From positions 124,001 through 188,000 of the forward strand of contig NZ_LT855388.1 of assembly GCF_900184735.1 (NCBI RefSeq): 64,000 bases of DNA. Direction: 5' to 3'. Positions 45,063 through 51,183 of the stretch are shown in pieces. How positions within the stretch are numbered: the first letter of the stretch is position 1; each line of letters opens with the position of its first letter. The notes beneath the pieces are model-generated. The model saw only the letters and a program-made list of their open reading frames with translations. It made no database searches and was not told the DNA's origin. A program made the position numbers and the translations under genes. The DNA comes from Paucisalibacillus globulus (GTDB lineage: Bacteria; Bacillota; Bacilli; Bacillales; Amphibacillaceae).

Positions 45063-46151
45063 ATGAGACATCGAGAATGGATTATGGCGGGGATAATACT
45101 ACTAATATACATATCTATTGCAACACCTATACATGCAGAAGTTTTGGAATCTCCGCAAGTAGAGAGTGATGCAGCTATTCTAATAGAACCGAAGACTGGT
45201 ACTGTACTTTACGAGAAAAATGCAACAATAAAAAGCTACCCAGCAAGCTTAACTAAAATTGCAACTGCAATATATGCATTAGAGAATGGTGAGCTAAATG
45301 ATGTGGTTACAGTTAGTGAAAATGCTTATCGAACATTAGGATCTTCTGTATATTTGGAAGCGGGAGAAGAAATCTCTCTACAACAGTTGTTAGAAGGTTT
45401 ATTAATAAATTCAGGAAACGATGCTGGAATAGCGATTGCAGAGCACTTAAGCGGTAGTCTGGAACAATATACAGAGGATATCAATAATTACTTAGAAAAG
45501 TATATAGGTGTGAAAAACACTCACTTTGAGAATCCGCATGGGTTATATGACCCCAATCATTACACGACGGCGGAAGACTTAGCCAAAATAGTCCAATACT
45601 CCATGAAGAATAAGGAGTTCCGTGAAATATTTGGGATGATGGAGAAAGAGTGGGACGGTCTTAAGTGGGATACAACCCTTTATACACATCATAAACTACT
45701 TAGAGAGATGCCGTATCCTGGTGTTACTGGTGGAAAAACTGGATATATTGAAGAAGCAGGATATACTCTAGCGACGACTGCAAAGCGTGAAAATCTGGAG
45801 TTGGTTGTCATAACATTAAACGCAGATCAGCAGATGGGATCATACCAAGATACTAAAGCATTATTAGATTATGGTTTCGAAAACTTTGTACGAAAAGGGC
45901 AACAAGTATTTGCTAGTGGTCTAGAAGTAAACAATAGAAAACTAGTAAGTGCAAATGGATTGGAAATTCAAAAGAAAAAGACAGTAAAGTTAAAAGCAAA
46001 AGTGGATGTTATACCGCCAAGGCATGTGGAAAGAGTATCGGGTAGTTTGAATACTATCCCCATTAAACATCATGATATTCTGATTATGATAACGGTATTA
46101 ATTCTATTTTGGGTTATGTTTCATAACTGGAAATCTCAAAAACTGTTATGA
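45063..46151 (+). CDS. D-alanyl-D-alanine carboxypeptidase (S11)
   Basis: 362 aa. Signal peptide cut near HAE (residue 27). Penicillin-binding active-site motifs: SLTK (SxxK, about 63-66), SGN (about 121-123) and KTGY (about 225-228). After a short C-terminal region with a Lys-rich strand, a membrane segment (about 333-352) anchors the protein at its C-terminus instead of the usual amphipathic helix. It trims the terminal D-Ala from pentapeptides. RBS GGAGGG. It overlaps the convergent membrane protein gene by 16 bp. Confidence 0.9.
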   Translation: MRHREWIMAGIILLIYISIATPIHAEVLESPQVESDAAILIEPKTGTVLYEKNATIKSYPASLTKIATAIYALENGELNDVVTVSENAYRTLGSSVYLEAGEEISLQQLLEGLLINSGNDAGIAIAEHLSGSLEQYTEDINNYLEKYIGVKNTHFENPHGLYDPNHYTTAEDLAKIVQYSMKNKEFREIFGMMEKEWDGLKWDTTLYTHHKLLREMPYPGVTGGKTGYIEEAGYTLATTAKRENLELVVITLNADQQMGSYQDTKALLDYGFENFVRKGQQVFASGLEVNNRKLVSANGLEIQKKKTVKLKAKVDVIPPRHVERVSGSLNTIPIKHHDILIMITVLILFWVMFHNWKSQKLL

Positions 46152-46699
46152 TTATGTTCGTTCTCTATCCCAATGATTGAAATATCTTTTATTAGGAAAA
46201 ATATTACGGTAATGACTATGATATATAAGTAGGGATGATTACTAACCAAGATCGGTAAATTTAACTTTTTGGATATGATGGAAGTCTCGATTAAGTAAGA
46301 TACAAGTAACAGAATCATGAAGGTGAAGAAGAACATTAATTTAATCATCGCATCTGGATTGGACATAGGAATCATTTCTCCAAGCATAGCTCCCATCATC
46401 CCTCCCATGATTCCAGAAACACTTCCTTCAATGACAGTGAAGAGACTAAATGGCAGGCCAGCTAAAAAACCTATTGAGAAGCCGATTAGCATAGAAATAA
46501 CGGTGGATGTAAATAAATCACCGTTTAAATGTAATCCTAGTAGCGTACCGAATAGGAGTCCAGTCATCATACCTAAAGTCATGGATAAGATCATGCCATG
46601 CATGGATTGTACATGCTTTCGATATATTATACTGACGAGAATTACACTAATAACTTGTATCATACATATAGTAAGAAGTAGAAATAAAATGGGTGACAT
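46136..46699 (-). CDS. Integral membrane protein, Gly/Met-rich
   Basis: 187 aa with about five hydrophobic segments and many Gly-x-x-x-Gly patterns (LGMMTGLLFGTLLGLHLNG, then GGMMGAMLGEMI). This indicates tightly packed helices. The ribosome site AAGGAGAG supports the start. I cannot assign a family. The C-terminus ends in the polar Glu-Asn-Glu-His-Asn-His-Asn-Ser-Phe. The 3' end overlaps that of the DD-carboxypeptidase. Confidence 0.65.
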   Translation of the reverse strand: MSPILFLLLTICMIQVISVILVSIIYRKHVQSMHGMILSMTLGMMTGLLFGTLLGLHLNGDLFTSTVISMLIGFSIGFLAGLPFSLFTVIEGSVSGIMGGMMGAMLGEMIPMSNPDAMIKLMFFFTFMILLLVSYLIETSIISKKLNLPILVSNHPYLYIIVITVIFFLIKDISIIGIENEHNHNSF

Positions 46700-46849
46700 A
46701 TAGGGCTCTCCTTCTTCGATTAGTTGTCCATTGTTATTGTATTAATGAACCATGTCAAATATGATATACCCTATGGTGGTATTTTTTTATTTTCATTATT
46801 TTTTGTGTTGGTACTATTAAAAACAAGCCAAACTATGCTATTTTAGTTT

Positions 46850-46869
46850 TATGGAATATTTATTCCATA
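46850..46869. promoter_or_regulatory. Palindrome upstream of ddl
   Basis: TATGGAATA, 2-nt centre, TATTCCATA: perfect 9-bp arms, 73 nt before the ddl start. It could be an operator or part of the promoter region. No regulator is identified. Confidence 0.35.
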
Positions 46870-46941
46870 ACTTATGCAATTGCCAAAAAGAGTTTGTTGA
46901 ACGGTAAGTTTTCTAAGATTGTGATGGAAAGGACGTCTAAC

Positions 46942-48042
46942 GTGAAAAAGACAAAAGTAGGAATAATATTTGGTGGGAAATCTGCAGAACATGAGGTTTC
47001 ACTGCAATCTGCTAAGAACATTGTAGATGCAATTAATAAAGAAAAATATGACGTTGTCTTAATCGGGATTGATAAAGAGGGAAAATGGCACTTAAATGAC
47101 CAATCCTCATACTTATTAGATGCAAATAATCCTAAATTGATAGCTTTGAATAAATCGAATGATAATGTGGCTATTGTACCCGGGACTTCTGAGAATCAAC
47201 TAATTCATGCTGAAGATGCAGTAAGCCTTGAACAGCTTGATGTAGTGTTTCCAATTGTGCATGGAACACTTGGTGAAGATGGAAGTTTGCAAGGAATGTT
47301 AAGGATGGCAAACTTACCGTTCGTAGGCCCTAGTGTATTAGGTTCATCCGTATGTATGGATAAAGATATAGCGAAAAGATTATTAAGTGCAGCGGGAATT
47401 CGAGTTGCAAAAGGAATTACGGTTAAACGACCGAACAAAGATAACCTAAACTTTGAAGAAGTAAGTGGAATGCTCGGAACACCAATGTTCATTAAACCAG
47501 CGAACCAAGGGTCTTCAGTAGGGGTAAGTAAAGTCAAAAATGAAGAAGAATTCAAGGCTGCAATAGAGTCGGCATTCCAATATGATCACAAAGTAGTCAT
47601 TGAAGAAAATATTGTTGGTCGTGAAGTAGAGTGTGCAGTGCTAGGGAATGATAAGCCGATAGCATCAATCCCTGGTGAGATTCTGCCTAACACTGATTTC
47701 TATTCGTATGAGTCAAAATATATCGATGAAAAGGGTGCGGACCTAGCTATTCCAGCAGACCTTACAGAAGAACAAGTAAAGAAGGTTCAAGAGGCTGCTA
47801 TTGAAGCGTTTAAAACATTGGAATGTGAAGGTCTAGCTCGAGTTGACTTTTTCTTAACAGAGAATAATGAGTTATATATAAATGAAGTCAATACACTACC
47901 AGGATTCACAAAAATAAGTATGTATCCAAAGCTATGGGAAATTAGCGGGATTCCTTATTCAGAATTAATTAGTCGTCTAATTGACTTAGCAATTGAAAGA
48001 CATGAAAATGATGCGAAATTAAAAAGTACAGTTTGGGAATAA
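46942..48042 (+). CDS. ddl: D-alanine--D-alanine ligase
   Basis: 366 aa from GTG 46942, chosen for AAAGGA 8 nt upstream. ATP-grasp ligase: N-terminal GIIFGGKSAEHEVSLQSA, then HGTLGEDGSLQGML, central PANQGSSVGVSKV, and C-terminal RVDFFLTENNELYINEVNTLPGFT with the Mg-binding Glu/Asn. It joins two D-alanines for the peptidoglycan stem. The active-site residue usually Tyr or Phe lies in the FYSYESKYID loop and is Tyr, typical of D-Ala-D-Ala rather than D-Ala-D-Lac ligases. Monocistronic, after the palindrome at 46850. Confidence 0.93.
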   Translation: MKKTKVGIIFGGKSAEHEVSLQSAKNIVDAINKEKYDVVLIGIDKEGKWHLNDQSSYLLDANNPKLIALNKSNDNVAIVPGTSENQLIHAEDAVSLEQLDVVFPIVHGTLGEDGSLQGMLRMANLPFVGPSVLGSSVCMDKDIAKRLLSAAGIRVAKGITVKRPNKDNLNFEEVSGMLGTPMFIKPANQGSSVGVSKVKNEEEFKAAIESAFQYDHKVVIEENIVGREVECAVLGNDKPIASIPGEILPNTDFYSYESKYIDEKGADLAIPADLTEEQVKKVQEAAIEAFKTLECEGLARVDFFLTENNELYINEVNTLPGFTKISMYPKLWEISGIPYSELISRLIDLAIERHENDAKLKSTVWE

Positions 48043-48134
48043 CATTATATCAAAGCAAGAACAGACATATGTCACAAAATACAAGTTTTAATTTTTGCAT
48101 GGTAGAAAAAGTTTAGAAAATTTCACAAAAGATG

Positions 48135-48163
48135 TTTACAAACAATCAAATTGTGGATATAAT
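48135..48163 (+). promoter_or_regulatory. Sigma-A promoter of the yrzI-type locus
   Basis: TTTACA (48135-48140), 17-nt spacer, TATAAT (48158-48163). Predicted start about 48170, some 34 nt before the first small ORF. Confidence 0.8.
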
Positions 48164-48203
48164 TACCATGTTAGTTAAAAAATTCTTAAGGAGGTCGAAT
48201 GAA

Positions 48204-48317
48204 ATGAACTTTATTATTAATGGTTTAACACTAACAACTTTAAAAATGAATAATCACACATTCGACCATACTGATATGGATCGCTTAAGATTTTTTAATC
48301 ACTACGGGGAAGTATAA
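48204..48317 (+). CDS. 37-aa peptide, first ORF of the yrzI-type locus
   Basis: 37 codons from ATG 48204 with AAGGAGGT 8 nt upstream; it begins Met-Asn-Phe-Ile-Ile-Asn-Gly and ends Phe-Asn-His-Tyr-Gly-Glu-Val. It is His/Asn-rich with no TM segment. The strong promoter and ribosome site argue that it is translated. In B. subtilis the yrzI transcript also carries tiny ORFs ahead of yrzI, and this one holds the same position, though I cannot show homology. Three hairpins follow it. Confidence 0.6.
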   Translation: MNFIINGLTLTTLKMNNHTFDHTDMDRLRFFNHYGEV

Positions 48318-48337
48318 ACACTTTCCTGAAGTTTAAG

Positions 48338-48378
48338 AAAAACTAACCCTTTCGCTAAACAAGCGAGTACCAGTTTTT
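48338..48378 (+). terminator. Hairpin 1 after the 37-aa ORF
   Basis: Outer arms AAAACT / AGTTTT and inner arms TCGCT / AGCGA, ending in a T run. First of three successive terminator-like hairpins before yrzI. Confidence 0.6.
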
Positions 48379-48400
48379 CAATTAAAATTAAGCATACCTA

Positions 48401-48435
48401 TACCGTAGGGAGAATGGTGTCCCTGCGGTATTTTT
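48401..48435 (+). terminator. Hairpin 2 (terminator, arms 1 and 2 of a possible attenuator)
   Basis: TACCGTAGGGA (48401-48411) pairs with TCCCTGCGGTA (48420-48430), 11 bp with one G-T, followed by five T. The right arm is also perfectly complementary to the left arm of the next hairpin. Confidence 0.85.
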
Positions 48436-48445
48436 GTGCCTTTTT

Positions 48446-48477
48446 TACCGCAGGGGAATCTCTCTGCGGTTTTTTTA
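48446..48477 (+). terminator. Hairpin 3 (terminator, arms 3 and 4 of a possible attenuator)
   Basis: ACCGCAG (48447-48453) pairs with CTGCGGT (48464-48470), followed by a T run. Alternatively TACCGCAGGG (48446-48455) pairs perfectly with CCCTGCGGTA (48421-48430), which would undo both terminators. Only 30 bp separate it from yrzI. Confidence 0.8.
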
Positions 48478-48507
48478 TGTTATGTGGTATTAAAGGAGGT
48501 GATTGGA

Positions 48508-48645
48508 ATGACGTTAAACATTTTATTTTTCACGATAACAATTAGAAAACGTGAGACTACTATGGAGGAAGCACTTCATAATGAACACGTTCAAAGAATC
48601 TATGAAGAAAACAAGAGAAAAGTTGCTTATTTTACAAGTCTATAA
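48508..48645 (+). CDS. yrzI: YrzI-family small protein
   Basis: 45 aa from ATG 48508 with AAAGGAGGTGA upstream. It matches YrzI from Bacillus: a start of MTLNILFFTITI then Lys-Arg, and a C-terminal amphipathic helix with EEALHNEHVQRIYEENKRK. The N-terminal dozen residues are hydrophobic. In B. subtilis the yrzI mRNA is a target of the ribosome-associated endonuclease Rae1 and YrzI is reported to be toxic when over-made. It is followed by another tiny ORF. Confidence 0.85.
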   Translation: MTLNILFFTITIRKRETTMEEALHNEHVQRIYEENKRKVAYFTSL

Positions 48646-48686
48646 GATTTTGTGGTTCTTAATAAATTGGAAAGGTGGGAATATTG

Positions 48687-48746
48687 ATGATTTATTTGAT
48701 TCAAGGACGTAAAGCAGCTTTATGGGTGGAGAAAGACACAACCTAA
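48687..48746 (+). CDS. 19-aa peptide after yrzI
   Basis: ATG 48687 with GGAAAGGTGGG upstream; 19 codons beginning Met-Ile-Tyr-Leu-Ile-Gln-Gly and ending Asp-Thr-Thr. It is too short for homology, but position and ribosome site suggest translation. It resembles the tiny ORFs flanking yrzI in B. subtilis in size only. Confidence 0.45.
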   Translation: MIYLIQGRKAALWVEKDTT

Positions 48747-48800
48747 CCAGTTTCCACTGTTAATAACCGGTGAAATAGGCAGCATTATAAAGGTGGATTT

Positions 48801-48839
48801 CGTACAGTATGCTTTGTTGCTATTTACAGAAACTGTACG
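48801..48839 (+). terminator. Hairpin at the end of the yrzI-type locus
   Basis: Perfect 8-bp arms CGTACAGT (48801-48808) and ACTGTACG (48832-48839) with a 23-nt loop, then GTATGACTTTT. Possible terminator or stable 3' end. Confidence 0.5.
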
Positions 48840-48854
48840 GTATGACTTTTAGTT

Positions 48855-48991
48855 GGGAGCAACATACCCGCTACGGAAATACACTCCGCTTTCCGCGGGC
48901 GGCTGGTGAGCCTCCTCGTGCTATCGCACTGTGGGGTCTCACCGATGCCTATCCTCCCGCAGGAGTCTCCGTGTATTTCCTACGCTAGTAT
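48855..48991 (+). repeat. GC-rich modular palindromic repeat, copy B
   Basis: Shares with copy A the ACCCGCTACGGAAATACAC left end, the GGTGAGCCTCCTCGTGC / GGGGTCTCACCGATGCC inner module and the GGAGTCTCCGTGTATTTCC right end, without the 55-bp extra segment. It faces copy C, 70 bp away, as an inverted pair. The 48.75-49.36 kb gap holds this pair and no gene. Confidence 0.9.
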
Positions 48992-49063
48992 TGAGTGAGT
49001 AAAAAAATAAGCAATAAAAACCAACACAATAATTATTTGCTAATCTAAAGTTAGAAAACTCAA

Positions 49064-49214
49064 ACTAGCGCAGGCAGAATACGGAGACTCCTGCGGGAAA
49101 AGCACGTGTCCGAAGACCCCTAGAGAGGCGAACTTTCCTCGAGGAGGCTGAGGCCGTGCCCGCGGAAAGCGGAGTATTCTGCCGGAGCGGTAGCATCGAG
49201 CTTCACCAAATCTA
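49064..49214 (-). repeat. GC-rich modular palindromic repeat, copy C
   Basis: Reverse orientation. Ends: CTAGCG..GGCAGAATACGGAGACTCC and GCGGAAAGCGGAGTATTCTG then GCCGGAGCGGTAGC. The inner module is the other version, with CGTGTCCGAAGACCCC and CCTCGAGGAGGCTGAGGC, shared with copy D. Confidence 0.9.
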
Positions 49215-49311
49215 AATAATGTTACCGCGCAGTTTCTAATCTACTGTTTGTCAGATAAAACTAACCGAAAAACAACAATCAATTTGAAAGCCAATGTAAA
49301 TGACAATAAAA

Positions 49312-49360
49312 GGGCCAATCAGTATAACCCCGTTCTAACTAGGACGGGGTTATACTGATT
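49312..49360 (-). terminator. Intrinsic terminator of the nitroreductase gene
   Basis: Perfect 17-bp arms AATCAGTATAACCCCGT (49317-49333) and ACGGGGTTATACTGATT (49344-49360). Confidence 0.85.
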
Positions 49361-49361
49361 G

Positions 49362-49925
49362 TTAGCCAACTTGGAAAGTACTAAATTTGTCCCTCACTGC
49401 AATTCGATCTTTCTTCTCGGGTAGTTCATCAAAATATCCCATATGCAAGAAGCCAATAATTCTCTCATCTTCCTTCACATGAAGAATTTCTTCCACTTTT
49501 GGATCATAAATATGTGGGTTTGTTTTCCAAACTACGCCAAGCTCTTGCTCCCAAGCTAGAAGTTGAAAGTTTTGAATCATACAAGCAGTTGCTCCAAAGT
49601 TTTCATCCTGTTTCTTCTGATTGTCACCTTTCTCCATGATGACAACAAGAATGGCACTGGGTTCATTTAAATAGTTTTCACGGTTTTCTTGTCTATCTTC
49701 TGGGTAAGTACTTGCAATCTTCTTAGCAAAGTCCTGCTTTTGGTTTTCACCAACAAATATAAATCTCCAGGGTTGTCTCATTCCGTGAGTCGGAGCCCAG
49801 ATAGCATCTTCTAATAGCTCAGTAATGGTTTCTTCACTAACAATTTTATTGTTATAACCTTTTTTAATGGAACGGCGTTCTCTGATTATTTCAGCTAAAT
49901 CTGCTTTCTTCTTTAGTACTTGCAT
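49362..49925 (-). CDS. Nitroreductase-family protein
   Basis: 187 aa from ATG 49925 with AGAGGTG upstream; the longer frame has no site. FMN-dependent nitroreductase fold: N-terminal RRSIKKGYNN (FMN phosphate contact), APTHGMRQPWRFIFVG, ATACMIQNFQLLAWEQELGVVW and LHMGYFDELPEKKDR. It is close to YdjA/YfhC-type members. The reaction is NAD(P)H-dependent reduction of nitro or quinone compounds; the natural substrate is unknown. It is divergent from the DUF2269 gene. Confidence 0.9.
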   Translation of the reverse strand: MQVLKKKADLAEIIRERRSIKKGYNNKIVSEETITELLEDAIWAPTHGMRQPWRFIFVGENQKQDFAKKIASTYPEDRQENRENYLNEPSAILVVIMEKGDNQKKQDENFGATACMIQNFQLLAWEQELGVVWKTNPHIYDPKVEEILHVKEDERIIGFLHMGYFDELPEKKDRIAVRDKFSTFQVG

Positions 49926-50142
49926 GTCTAACACCTCTTTGTGCTGTTGTAATGTAGTACGTTCGTTTTTGCGACTGATAATCATTTTCAATCAACATAG
50001 TATACGATTTAGCATAGAAAAGCAAATCCATCTGGAAATATTTATTAATAGTGAAAGGATTTTCTTATGTGATGGATATCACGTACAGTTTACAAAAAAA
50101 GGTGTATGATAGAATCAGAAGAATGATATTGGAGGTTCTACT

Positions 50143-50595
50143 ATGTCATTTTATGAGGTTCTAGTCTTTATTCATATTTTTTCAGCTATATTAGGAATGG
50201 GTCCAGGATTTATGATGATCCTTATTGTCCAAAAATCATCTAATTTAACGGAACTAAGACATTCTTATGTTATTCGAAATCGACTTCATATTTTTACAAT
50301 GGTTGGAGGCACCTTGTTATTAATCTCAGGACTTTTAATGGGAGCAATTAACACAAGCCTATTTCAACAAGGATGGTATGTAACTAGTTTAGTGCTGTTC
50401 CTAGTTGCTCTTGCGTTTGGGCCATTATTACTTTCACCGAGATCAAAGCCAATTAAAAAGTTATTAAAAGAAGCACAAGGAGAAGAAATCCCGTCAGAAT
50501 ATGAAGTAATGGCTAAGAAGTTATTTCTTGTGGAAAGAATGGAGAATGTTATCTTTTTAGTTATTATTGCATTAATGATTTTAAAGCCATTTTGA
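50143..50595 (+). CDS. DUF2269-like membrane protein
   Basis: 150 aa with four membrane segments (about 6-28, 50-72, 78-98 and 127-148). An N-terminal HIFSAILGMGPGF stretch contains a His that could be a ligand, as in the DUF2269 family. Function unknown. RBS TTGGAGG. It is followed by a hairpin. Confidence 0.75.
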   Translation: MSFYEVLVFIHIFSAILGMGPGFMMILIVQKSSNLTELRHSYVIRNRLHIFTMVGGTLLLISGLLMGAINTSLFQQGWYVTSLVLFLVALAFGPLLLSPRSKPIKKLLKEAQGEEIPSEYEVMAKKLFLVERMENVIFLVIIALMILKPF

Positions 50596-50628
50596 GAAGA
50601 GCGTACCAAACTTGGTGCGCTCTTCATG
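50596..50628 (+). terminator. Hairpin after the DUF2269-like gene
   Basis: Arms GAAGAGCG (50596-50603) and CGCTCTTC (50618-50625) with inner ACCAA / TTGGT. The T run is poor. Confidence 0.65.
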
Positions 50629-50718
50629 TATTTAAAACAGTTTAAGAATCCAGCAAATACTCCTCTAATCAATATATGGTAAAATAGGACAAACAACTAA
50701 TTTGTAGGAGGAAAAGGG

Positions 50719-51183
50719 ATGAAAGAGTGGACGAAGGATATAGAAATTAATGCACCCATTGATCAGGTGTGGAAGCTATTTGATGGTAACCTTGAAGACA
50801 TGCAAAAAATTATGCCTAATGTAATAGAAAATAACCTTGTAAAAGAAACAGAGGACAAAGTTGGGACGATTTATCGTCAGAAATATCGTGAAGGAAAAAG
50901 AGTTCAAGAATATGATGTAGAAACTCTAGAATATCAGAATGAAGAAGACTATAAGAGAGTAAAAGTTGGATTCAATTTAGCTAATGTATTTGAAATTACA
51001 GCAGCATATCATTTGAAAAAGATTGATGACAATACAACCTATTTCCGTTATACAACAACAAATAATCCTTTGAAGTGGTTTGTTAAAATACTAGTTAAAT
51101 TAGCAGGTAGTGACAAAGTGGTGGTGCAATTTGTGGAACGTGTGAAAGAGGTATCGGAAAGAGAAGCAGCAGTGAAAGAGTAA
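50719..51183 (+). CDS. SRPBCC-family protein
   Basis: 154 aa. START/Bet v1-like fold: Trp-Thr-Lys-Asp-Ile-Glu-Ile-Asn-Ala-Pro start, IDQVWKLF helix, a beta sheet with YDVETLEY, and a long C-terminal helix. Such proteins bind hydrophobic ligands or polyketides in the cytoplasm. The ligand is not predictable. It starts after TAGGAGG and lies 18 bp before the histidine-phosphatase gene, likely one transcript. Confidence 0.85.
   Translation: MKEWTKDIEINAPIDQVWKLFDGNLEDMQKIMPNVIENNLVKETEDKVGTIYRQKYREGKRVQEYDVETLEYQNEEDYKRVKVGFNLANVFEITAAYHLKKIDDNTTYFRYTTTNNPLKWFVKILVKLAGSDKVVVQFVERVKEVSEREAAVKE

Follow-up and report, generated by a model that had tools for sequence, protein, structure and literature searches.

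In the trp attenuator of Escherichia coli, four RNA strands pair as 1:2, 2:3 or 3:4, and a ribosome on strand 1 frees strand 2. A leader with the same four-strand logic lies upstream of yrzI in a 64,000-nucleotide (nt) stretch of the Paucisalibacillus globulus genome (contig NZ_LT855388.1, positions 124,001 to 188,000, forward strand; the window). We propose, at a probability of about 0.73, that this leader would act as a trp- and bmrB-like ribosome-mediated transcription attenuator that senses whether a ribosome occupies the leader start. The bmrB leader of bmrCD in Bacillus subtilis was called the first documented leader-peptide-controlled transcription attenuator in that genome in 2014, in a paper that also describes trp (PMC4191407; this and all other papers are cited for the passages our survey covered). 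Like the yrzI leader in our model, bmrB combines a leader open reading frame (ORF), a terminator, an antiterminator that is energetically less favorable than the terminator, and a predicted anti-antiterminator; its readthrough occurs with ribosome-targeting antibiotics and requires leader translation (PMC4191407).

The two leaders, likened here by description, differ in several respects. In bmrB the terminator is contained in the leader ORF and the system drives a drug pump, whereas the yrzI leader has two linked terminators after its ORF, would use its own Shine-Dalgarno sequence (SD) as anti-antiterminator, and precedes a small-peptide operon. Compared with trp, the first strand of the yrzI leader is the SD and start region instead of control codons, so no particular amino acid would be read, and a second terminator is coupled to the first. 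In the translation attenuators ermC and cat-86, a stalled ribosome frees an alternative helix, as in our model, but in ermC this exposes the ribosome-binding site of the gene that follows (PMC4191407), whereas the yrzI leader would disarm a terminator. The upstream ORF of E. coli topAI responds to several classes of ribosome-targeting antibiotics, in a different host and with a different target (PMC12121999).

In the proposed mechanism, four elements would pair in mutually exclusive ways: strand S, overlapping the SD and start region; strand M, in the 3' part of the leader ORF; strand 1, made up of the upstream flank, 5' arm and loop of terminator T1; and arm 2 of T1. Without a ribosome on the leader, S:M would form, M would be occupied, and T1 and the second terminator, T2, would both form (off). 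A ribosome running freely to the leader stop would itself cover M, with the same outcome. If a ribosome were held at the start or first codons, for example by an elongation inhibitor, S would be covered, M would pair with strand 1, and T1 would be blocked. Arm 2, now free, would take arm 3 of T2, and RNA polymerase would proceed into yrzI (on). The arm 2:arm 3 helix would be a follow-on step after M:1 that disarms T2 too.

The leader layout is fixed in the window and its relatives: promoter, SD, short ORF, tandem T1 and T2, and yrzI (Table 1). Members of the yrzI family (PF09501) occurred in 5 of 11 genomes from the same genus as the window, in 9 of 159 from the family and in 51 of 398 sampled from the class. 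Scanning named genomes gave at least 76 PF09501 loci, in Paucisalibacillus, Ornithinibacillus, Mesobacillus, Neobacillus, Cytobacillus, Robertmurraya, Peribacillus and others. The leader motif matched in 76 of 85 loci, giving 73 distinct leaders once three duplicates were removed (L010, L011 and L014, the same as L003, L002 and L005), and four further loci carry leader variants. In 5 of the 82 distinct loci (L015, L018, L081, L082 and L083) no leader was found; all are second yrzI copies, in strains that have the leader at L076, L071, L027, L040 and L038, respectively. T1 and T2 stand between leader ORF and yrzI in all 73 leaders, each at or below -11.7 kcal/mol with at least 5 T in 8. The leader promoter was found within 75 nt before the SD in 71 of 73 (at least 5/6 matches in each hexamer), and a consensus scan at that threshold, run from M to 40 nt beyond T2, found no promoter in any of the 73. 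Conservation in all of these distinct, motif-found leaders puts the arrangement far from chance. From sequence comparison, we have high confidence that the leader is structurally a real and widely conserved cis-acting switch.

The sample extends beyond this set. Among 28 further loci from the class (L086 to L113), 7 yielded no promoter plus SD, two of which (L093 and L104) match the S-M motif, and L087, L106 and L111 yielded weak helices only. L087 was dropped from the set of 95 leaders used below. Two terminators were present in 22 of 23 further loci. We also searched for leader copies without yrzI, using the pattern GGAGGTCGAN{48,78}TTCGACC. It matched in 11 of the 159 family genomes, 9 of them the yrzI carriers; the other two matches (G071 and G123) look like chance because a backward control matches in 9 genomes.

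Pairing between S and M is supported by changes on both sides of the helix. In the window, GGUCGAAUG (48193-48201), overlapping the leader SD, and CAUUCGACC (48259-48267), within the leader ORF, are perfectly complementary and can form a helix of 9 base pairs (bp) that 0 of 100 shuffles equaled. Among relatives the two sides change together, as GGCUGAA:UUCAGCC (L088), GGUUGAAUC:GAUUCAGCC (L090), GGUCGAU:AUCGACC (L067 and L073), GGUCGAAUA:UAUUCGACC (L072 and L098), GGAUGAA:UUCAUCU (L099) and GGGAAGG:CCUUCCC (L086). Across the 95 leaders, 87.5% of S:M cells are paired, versus 21-51% in slid versions, percentages that lean towards pairing because the motif used to find 73 of the leaders already dictates most of the helix and the remaining 22 were anchored at whichever helix was best. 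The compensatory types among these 22 are better evidence for S:M than the percentages. Together, the pairing in 95 leaders and the compensatory types identify a candidate anti-antiterminator that overlaps the ribosome site.

The antiterminator exclusive with T1 would be M:1, which ranks below the terminators in equilibrium stability. In the window it pairs CAC.CAUUC..CC.UAC.G.UAUGG...GCUUA with UAAGC....CUAUAC.GUAGG..GAAUGGUG (dots unpaired) at -21.6 kcal/mol (z score -4.0). Over the 73 leaders, own pairs average -21.5 kcal/mol and permuted pairs -20.2, with 0 of 5000 permutations as good, and the 5' part of M against the T1 loop alone likewise gave 0 of 5000; the effect (z -6.2) comes close to that of the T1 stem itself (z -6.6). 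Controls with reversed M, a reversed loop, leader sequence 14 or 28 nt upstream, or the T2 loop stayed between z -0.8 and +0.7. The signal persisted in 46, 24 and 17 non-redundant representatives (identity thresholds of 85, 75 and 70%), with 0, 2 and 0 of 5000 permutations as good for the whole pairing and 0, 3 and 0 for the loop. M and the T1 loop change together in L072 (ACAUAUUC/GAAUAUGU), L073 (CACAAUC/GAUUGUG), L098 (AACUAUUC/GAAUAGUU) and L086 (ACCUUCC/GGAAGGU), and in each S changes too. M:1 reached z -1.0 or lower in 21 of the 23 further loci, the exceptions being L087 and L099.

We modeled a ribosome on the SD and first codons by masking the start, at the point where the T1 loop has been made and arm 2 has not. 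At least 8 M:1 pairs were expected in 72 of 73 leaders with the start masked (exception L068), versus 47 of 73 unmasked; in the window, the expected number was 23.8 masked versus 4.6 unmasked. With the start unmasked, at least 5 S:M pairs were expected in 59 of 73.

In all 73 leaders the leader ORF runs through M without a stop, compared with 16 of 146 cases for the two alternative frames. Start-to-M spacing preserves a single frame in 68 of 73, and the exceptions (L001, L003, L023, L084 and L085) are open in another frame. Sequence varies freely over the N-terminal half of the peptide, and the conserved nucleotides at the 3' end are translated as HSTRxEWIA and variants, as HSTDRNGLLN (the N. 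niacini group), as FD..MD (L001, L003 and L023) or as FDLYGAD (L084 and L085). The window is a frame-shifted case, in which the ORF continues beyond M to a stop at 48317, 50 nt past the TTCGACC core. Because the ORF stays open while peptide and frame vary, translation through M seems to be selected and the specific peptide does not.

The first-pass annotation of this DNA had proposed an attenuator with mutually exclusive structures, built on a perfect 10-bp complementarity between arms 2 and 3. That complementarity is real (-20.0 kcal/mol), and the loss in relatives that would have counted against it did not occur, as all 73 leaders retain it at or below -14.2 kcal/mol alongside both terminators. 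The attenuator reading holds, but 2:3 cannot be the switch by itself, since T1 is already complete by the time arm 3 is transcribed; strand M is required. What the annotation described is the last third of a real attenuator, without strands S and M. Its promoter, its 37-codon ORF (now with an SD), the downstream yrzI and 19-codon ORF, and the lack of a visible second promoter were all upheld, the last by the consensus scan described above. Two of its three terminator-like hairpins are T1 and T2; the third (48337-48379) is AU-rich and was not called a terminator. The suggested folding of the leader (48170-48507) gave -99.6 kcal/mol against a shuffle mean of -68.5 (z -6.8, 0 of 100 as good).

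Several results weigh against the proposed attenuator. Taken singly against shuffles, S:M attains p 0.05 at just 51 of 73 loci (median p 0.03, worst p 0.23), and 2:3 covaries weakly, with 13 of 2000 permutations reaching it. The part of M after the TTCGACC core has no own-versus-cross signal with the T1 flank alone (1160 of 5000 permutations), with the same register in nearly all loci. The reversed M:1 control drifts to z -1.5 to -2.2 in the reduced sets and is thus not quite flat, so base composition supplies part of the M:1 signal. M:1 is not strong in the Bacillus-like L090 and L091 (z -1.3 and -2.0). At equilibrium, once everything has been transcribed, 71 of 73 leaders favor the off state, by a mean of 8.0 kcal/mol (in the window, -75.8 kcal/mol off versus -68.3 on). 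Once T1 is complete, masking the start still leaves its median probability, P(T1), at 0.99 (1.000 in the window); P(T1) drops markedly on masking in some loci only, many of them Neobacillus. Because the terminators are more stable at equilibrium, the decision must be kinetic, with M:1 forming first during transcription. We infer that the leader ORF is translated, that timing is co-transcriptional, which way the switch responds and what induces it; direction and inducer are suggested by the design of the leader, by bmrB and by indirect B. subtilis data.

Some of these results would be expected if the tandem terminators simply ended a transcript from the ddl region or a stand-alone small RNA, with T1 and T2 related by duplication and yrzI reached by background readthrough. 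Because T1 and T2 share the core CCGCAGG/CCTGCGG, 2:3 complementarity follows from their likeness, and its covariation is weak; T1 is stable in every modeled state for most loci; and B. subtilis has a documented 234-nt Hfq-associated small RNA between yrzI and yrhG (PMC3574147). We nevertheless consider this explanation unlikely, as it leaves without a cause the compensatory change in S:M, the co-variation of the T1 loop with the leader, the ORF open in 73 of 73, and a promoter that is kept before the leader when none was found before yrzI. It is similarly improbable that M forms a pseudoknot with the loop of an intact T1 and affects messenger RNA (mRNA) stability or yrzI translation instead of termination. 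A strongly co-varying part of M:1 does sit in the T1 loop, mostly unpaired in T1, and published effects on yrzI mRNA involve stability (PMC10100781), but the complete M:1 helix would occupy the 5' arm of T1 as well, and it can arise while arm 2 is still to be transcribed.

Many leaders end in HSTxxEWIA or near variants, which raises the idea of a drug- or metabolite-sensing arrest peptide that stalls the ribosome at its C-terminal HSTRxEWIA-stop. This is very unlikely, and we dropped it because reading frames differ among leaders: the same nucleotides are read as HSTDRNGLLN, FD..MD or FDLYGAD, and a ribosome at the ORF end would cover M and favor termination. With a variable N-terminal half and the 3' nucleotides in differing frames, neither conserved stalling codons nor a conserved arrest-peptide motif was found in the leaders. 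A version in which a ribosome at the leader stop is the signal, acting through M after TTCGACC and the T1 flank, was rejected on the permutation result above; masking the end barely shifts mean P(T1) (0.98 unmasked versus 0.97), and we adopted the S/M/T1 model in its place. Highly conserved nucleotides and strong folding could also point to a small molecule or protein binding the leader, as in a riboswitch or protein-dependent attenuator. We regard this as highly improbable, since pairing largely explains the conserved stretches and the ORF is kept as an open frame. Moreover, an Rfam scan of window positions 46000-51000 and six relatives gave no match at the gathering score (sub-threshold matches were RsaF, ncS54, tsr24, MIR7510 and ylbH).

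Table 1. Features of the yrzI leader and operon in the window
Feature	Coordinates	Strand	Remarks
Leader promoter TTTACA-17-TATAAT	48135-48163	+	11/12 consensus matches
Leader ORF SD, AAGGAGG	48188-48194	+	Position kept in relatives
Strand S, GGTCGAATG	48193-48201	+	Overlaps SD/start region; predicted to pair with 48259-48267
Leader ORF, 37 codons	48204-48317	+	Peptide not conserved; open through strand M
Strand M, 3' part of leader ORF	48255-48289	+	Predicted to pair with S (off) or T1 5' half (on)
AU-rich hairpin	48337-48379	+	Within loop of M:1 helix; among loci viewed by eye, seen only in the close relatives L001-L005
Strand 1 (T1 upstream flank, 5' arm and loop)	48388-48419	+	Complementary to M
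Terminator T1 (arms 1, 2)	48400-48431	+	Terminator scan; T-run
Terminator T2 (arms 3, 4)	48447-48470	+	Terminator scan; T-run
Arm 2:arm 3 alternative helix, 10 bp	48421-48455	+	-20.0 kcal/mol
yrzI, 45 amino acids	48508-48645	+	PF09501
19-codon ORF, MIYLIQGRKAALWVEKDTT	48687-48746	+	Probable counterpart of B. subtilis S1025 ORF

T1 and T2 are the only terminator-like sites listed on the + strand for 47000-50000, and a second promoter-like site with 10/12 matches (48225-48254) lies inside the leader ORF, upstream of M. A stretch before T1 (~48393-48403) is complementary to one after T2 (~48480-48491), weakly in the window and most strongly in Neobacillus (ACATATCCA:TGGATATGT). Own pairs are better than permuted ones (0 of 2000, z -7.2; reversed control z -2.3), and readthrough RNA alone would allow the helix to form. 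T2 and the yrzI start (48441-48549) resemble the Staphylococcus aureus RNA RsaF weakly, below the Rfam gathering score, as does L072:1911-2042.

By its position, the 19-codon ORF is probably the S1025 counterpart. Its peptide keeps WVEKDTT or close forms in relatives, possibly a Rae1 site. ORFs of 12-26 amino acids with EKD occur within 900 nt past T2 in 33 of 73 loci; those without one are mostly from Neobacillus. Among the Neobacillus/Mesobacillus loci, L012 has several tandem yrzI-like and S1025-like small ORFs behind one leader. Downstream of the 19-codon ORF in the window, an inverted repeat was noted by eye (CGTACAGT/ACTGTACG, 48801-48808 and 48832-48839). Just past the operon, a GC-rich dispersed repeat is present in two inverted copies (48870-48990 and 49064-49188). 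The first copy has at least 61 matches in the genome (of 168 candidates 40 were scored, with 40 at 93% identity or more), and several matches are inverted pairs about 200 bp apart.

The L090 leader sits between yrzI and a formate/nitrite transporter gene; this fits the yrzI-yrhG arrangement, YrhG being presumably a formate/nitrite transporter, and the L090 genome is probably close to B. subtilis. In a table of B. subtilis luciferase reporters, the yrzI entry, which cites Hutter et al. 2004a, stands beside yheI, which we take to be bmrC. That table, in a review, lists yrzI as a reporter for protein-synthesis inhibition (PMC7604286), which a ribosome-mediated attenuator would fit. The yrzI and bmrCD mRNAs rise on depletion of ribonuclease P/Z (PMC10100781), and yrzI and bmrBCD rise together in a whiA mutant (PMC10714963). 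Candidates for Rae1 are S1024, S1025, S1026, yrzI, bmrC, bmrD and bglC (PMC10632193); S1025, in the yrzI operon, is the first characterized Rae1 substrate (PMC11780869), and a YacP (Rae1) family protein is encoded in the genome that the window comes from. S1026 has been placed upstream of yrzI (PMC3498285), and the 5' untranslated region of Bacillus licheniformis yrzI is 301 nt (PMC3871023). In the passages covered on yrzI, Rae1/S1025, ncr60, S1026, bmrCD and ribosome-mediated attenuation, no yrzI attenuator is described (an earlier mention elsewhere in print may exist), and the mode of yrzI induction is not stated.

The yrzI leader offers a concrete and testable induction mechanism for the yrzI operon. 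We would give even odds to a broader view, in which the leader is a general sensor of ribosome occupancy that works with any peptide, slowed early elongation would turn on an operon of yrzI and Rae1 targets, 2:3 would couple both terminators so that one ribosome disarms both, and the device would be ancient in Bacillaceae and their relatives. If the proposed attenuator is true, it would be a widespread relative of bmrCD control, found in at least 7 named genera, that senses the ribosome at its landing site and not at particular codons.
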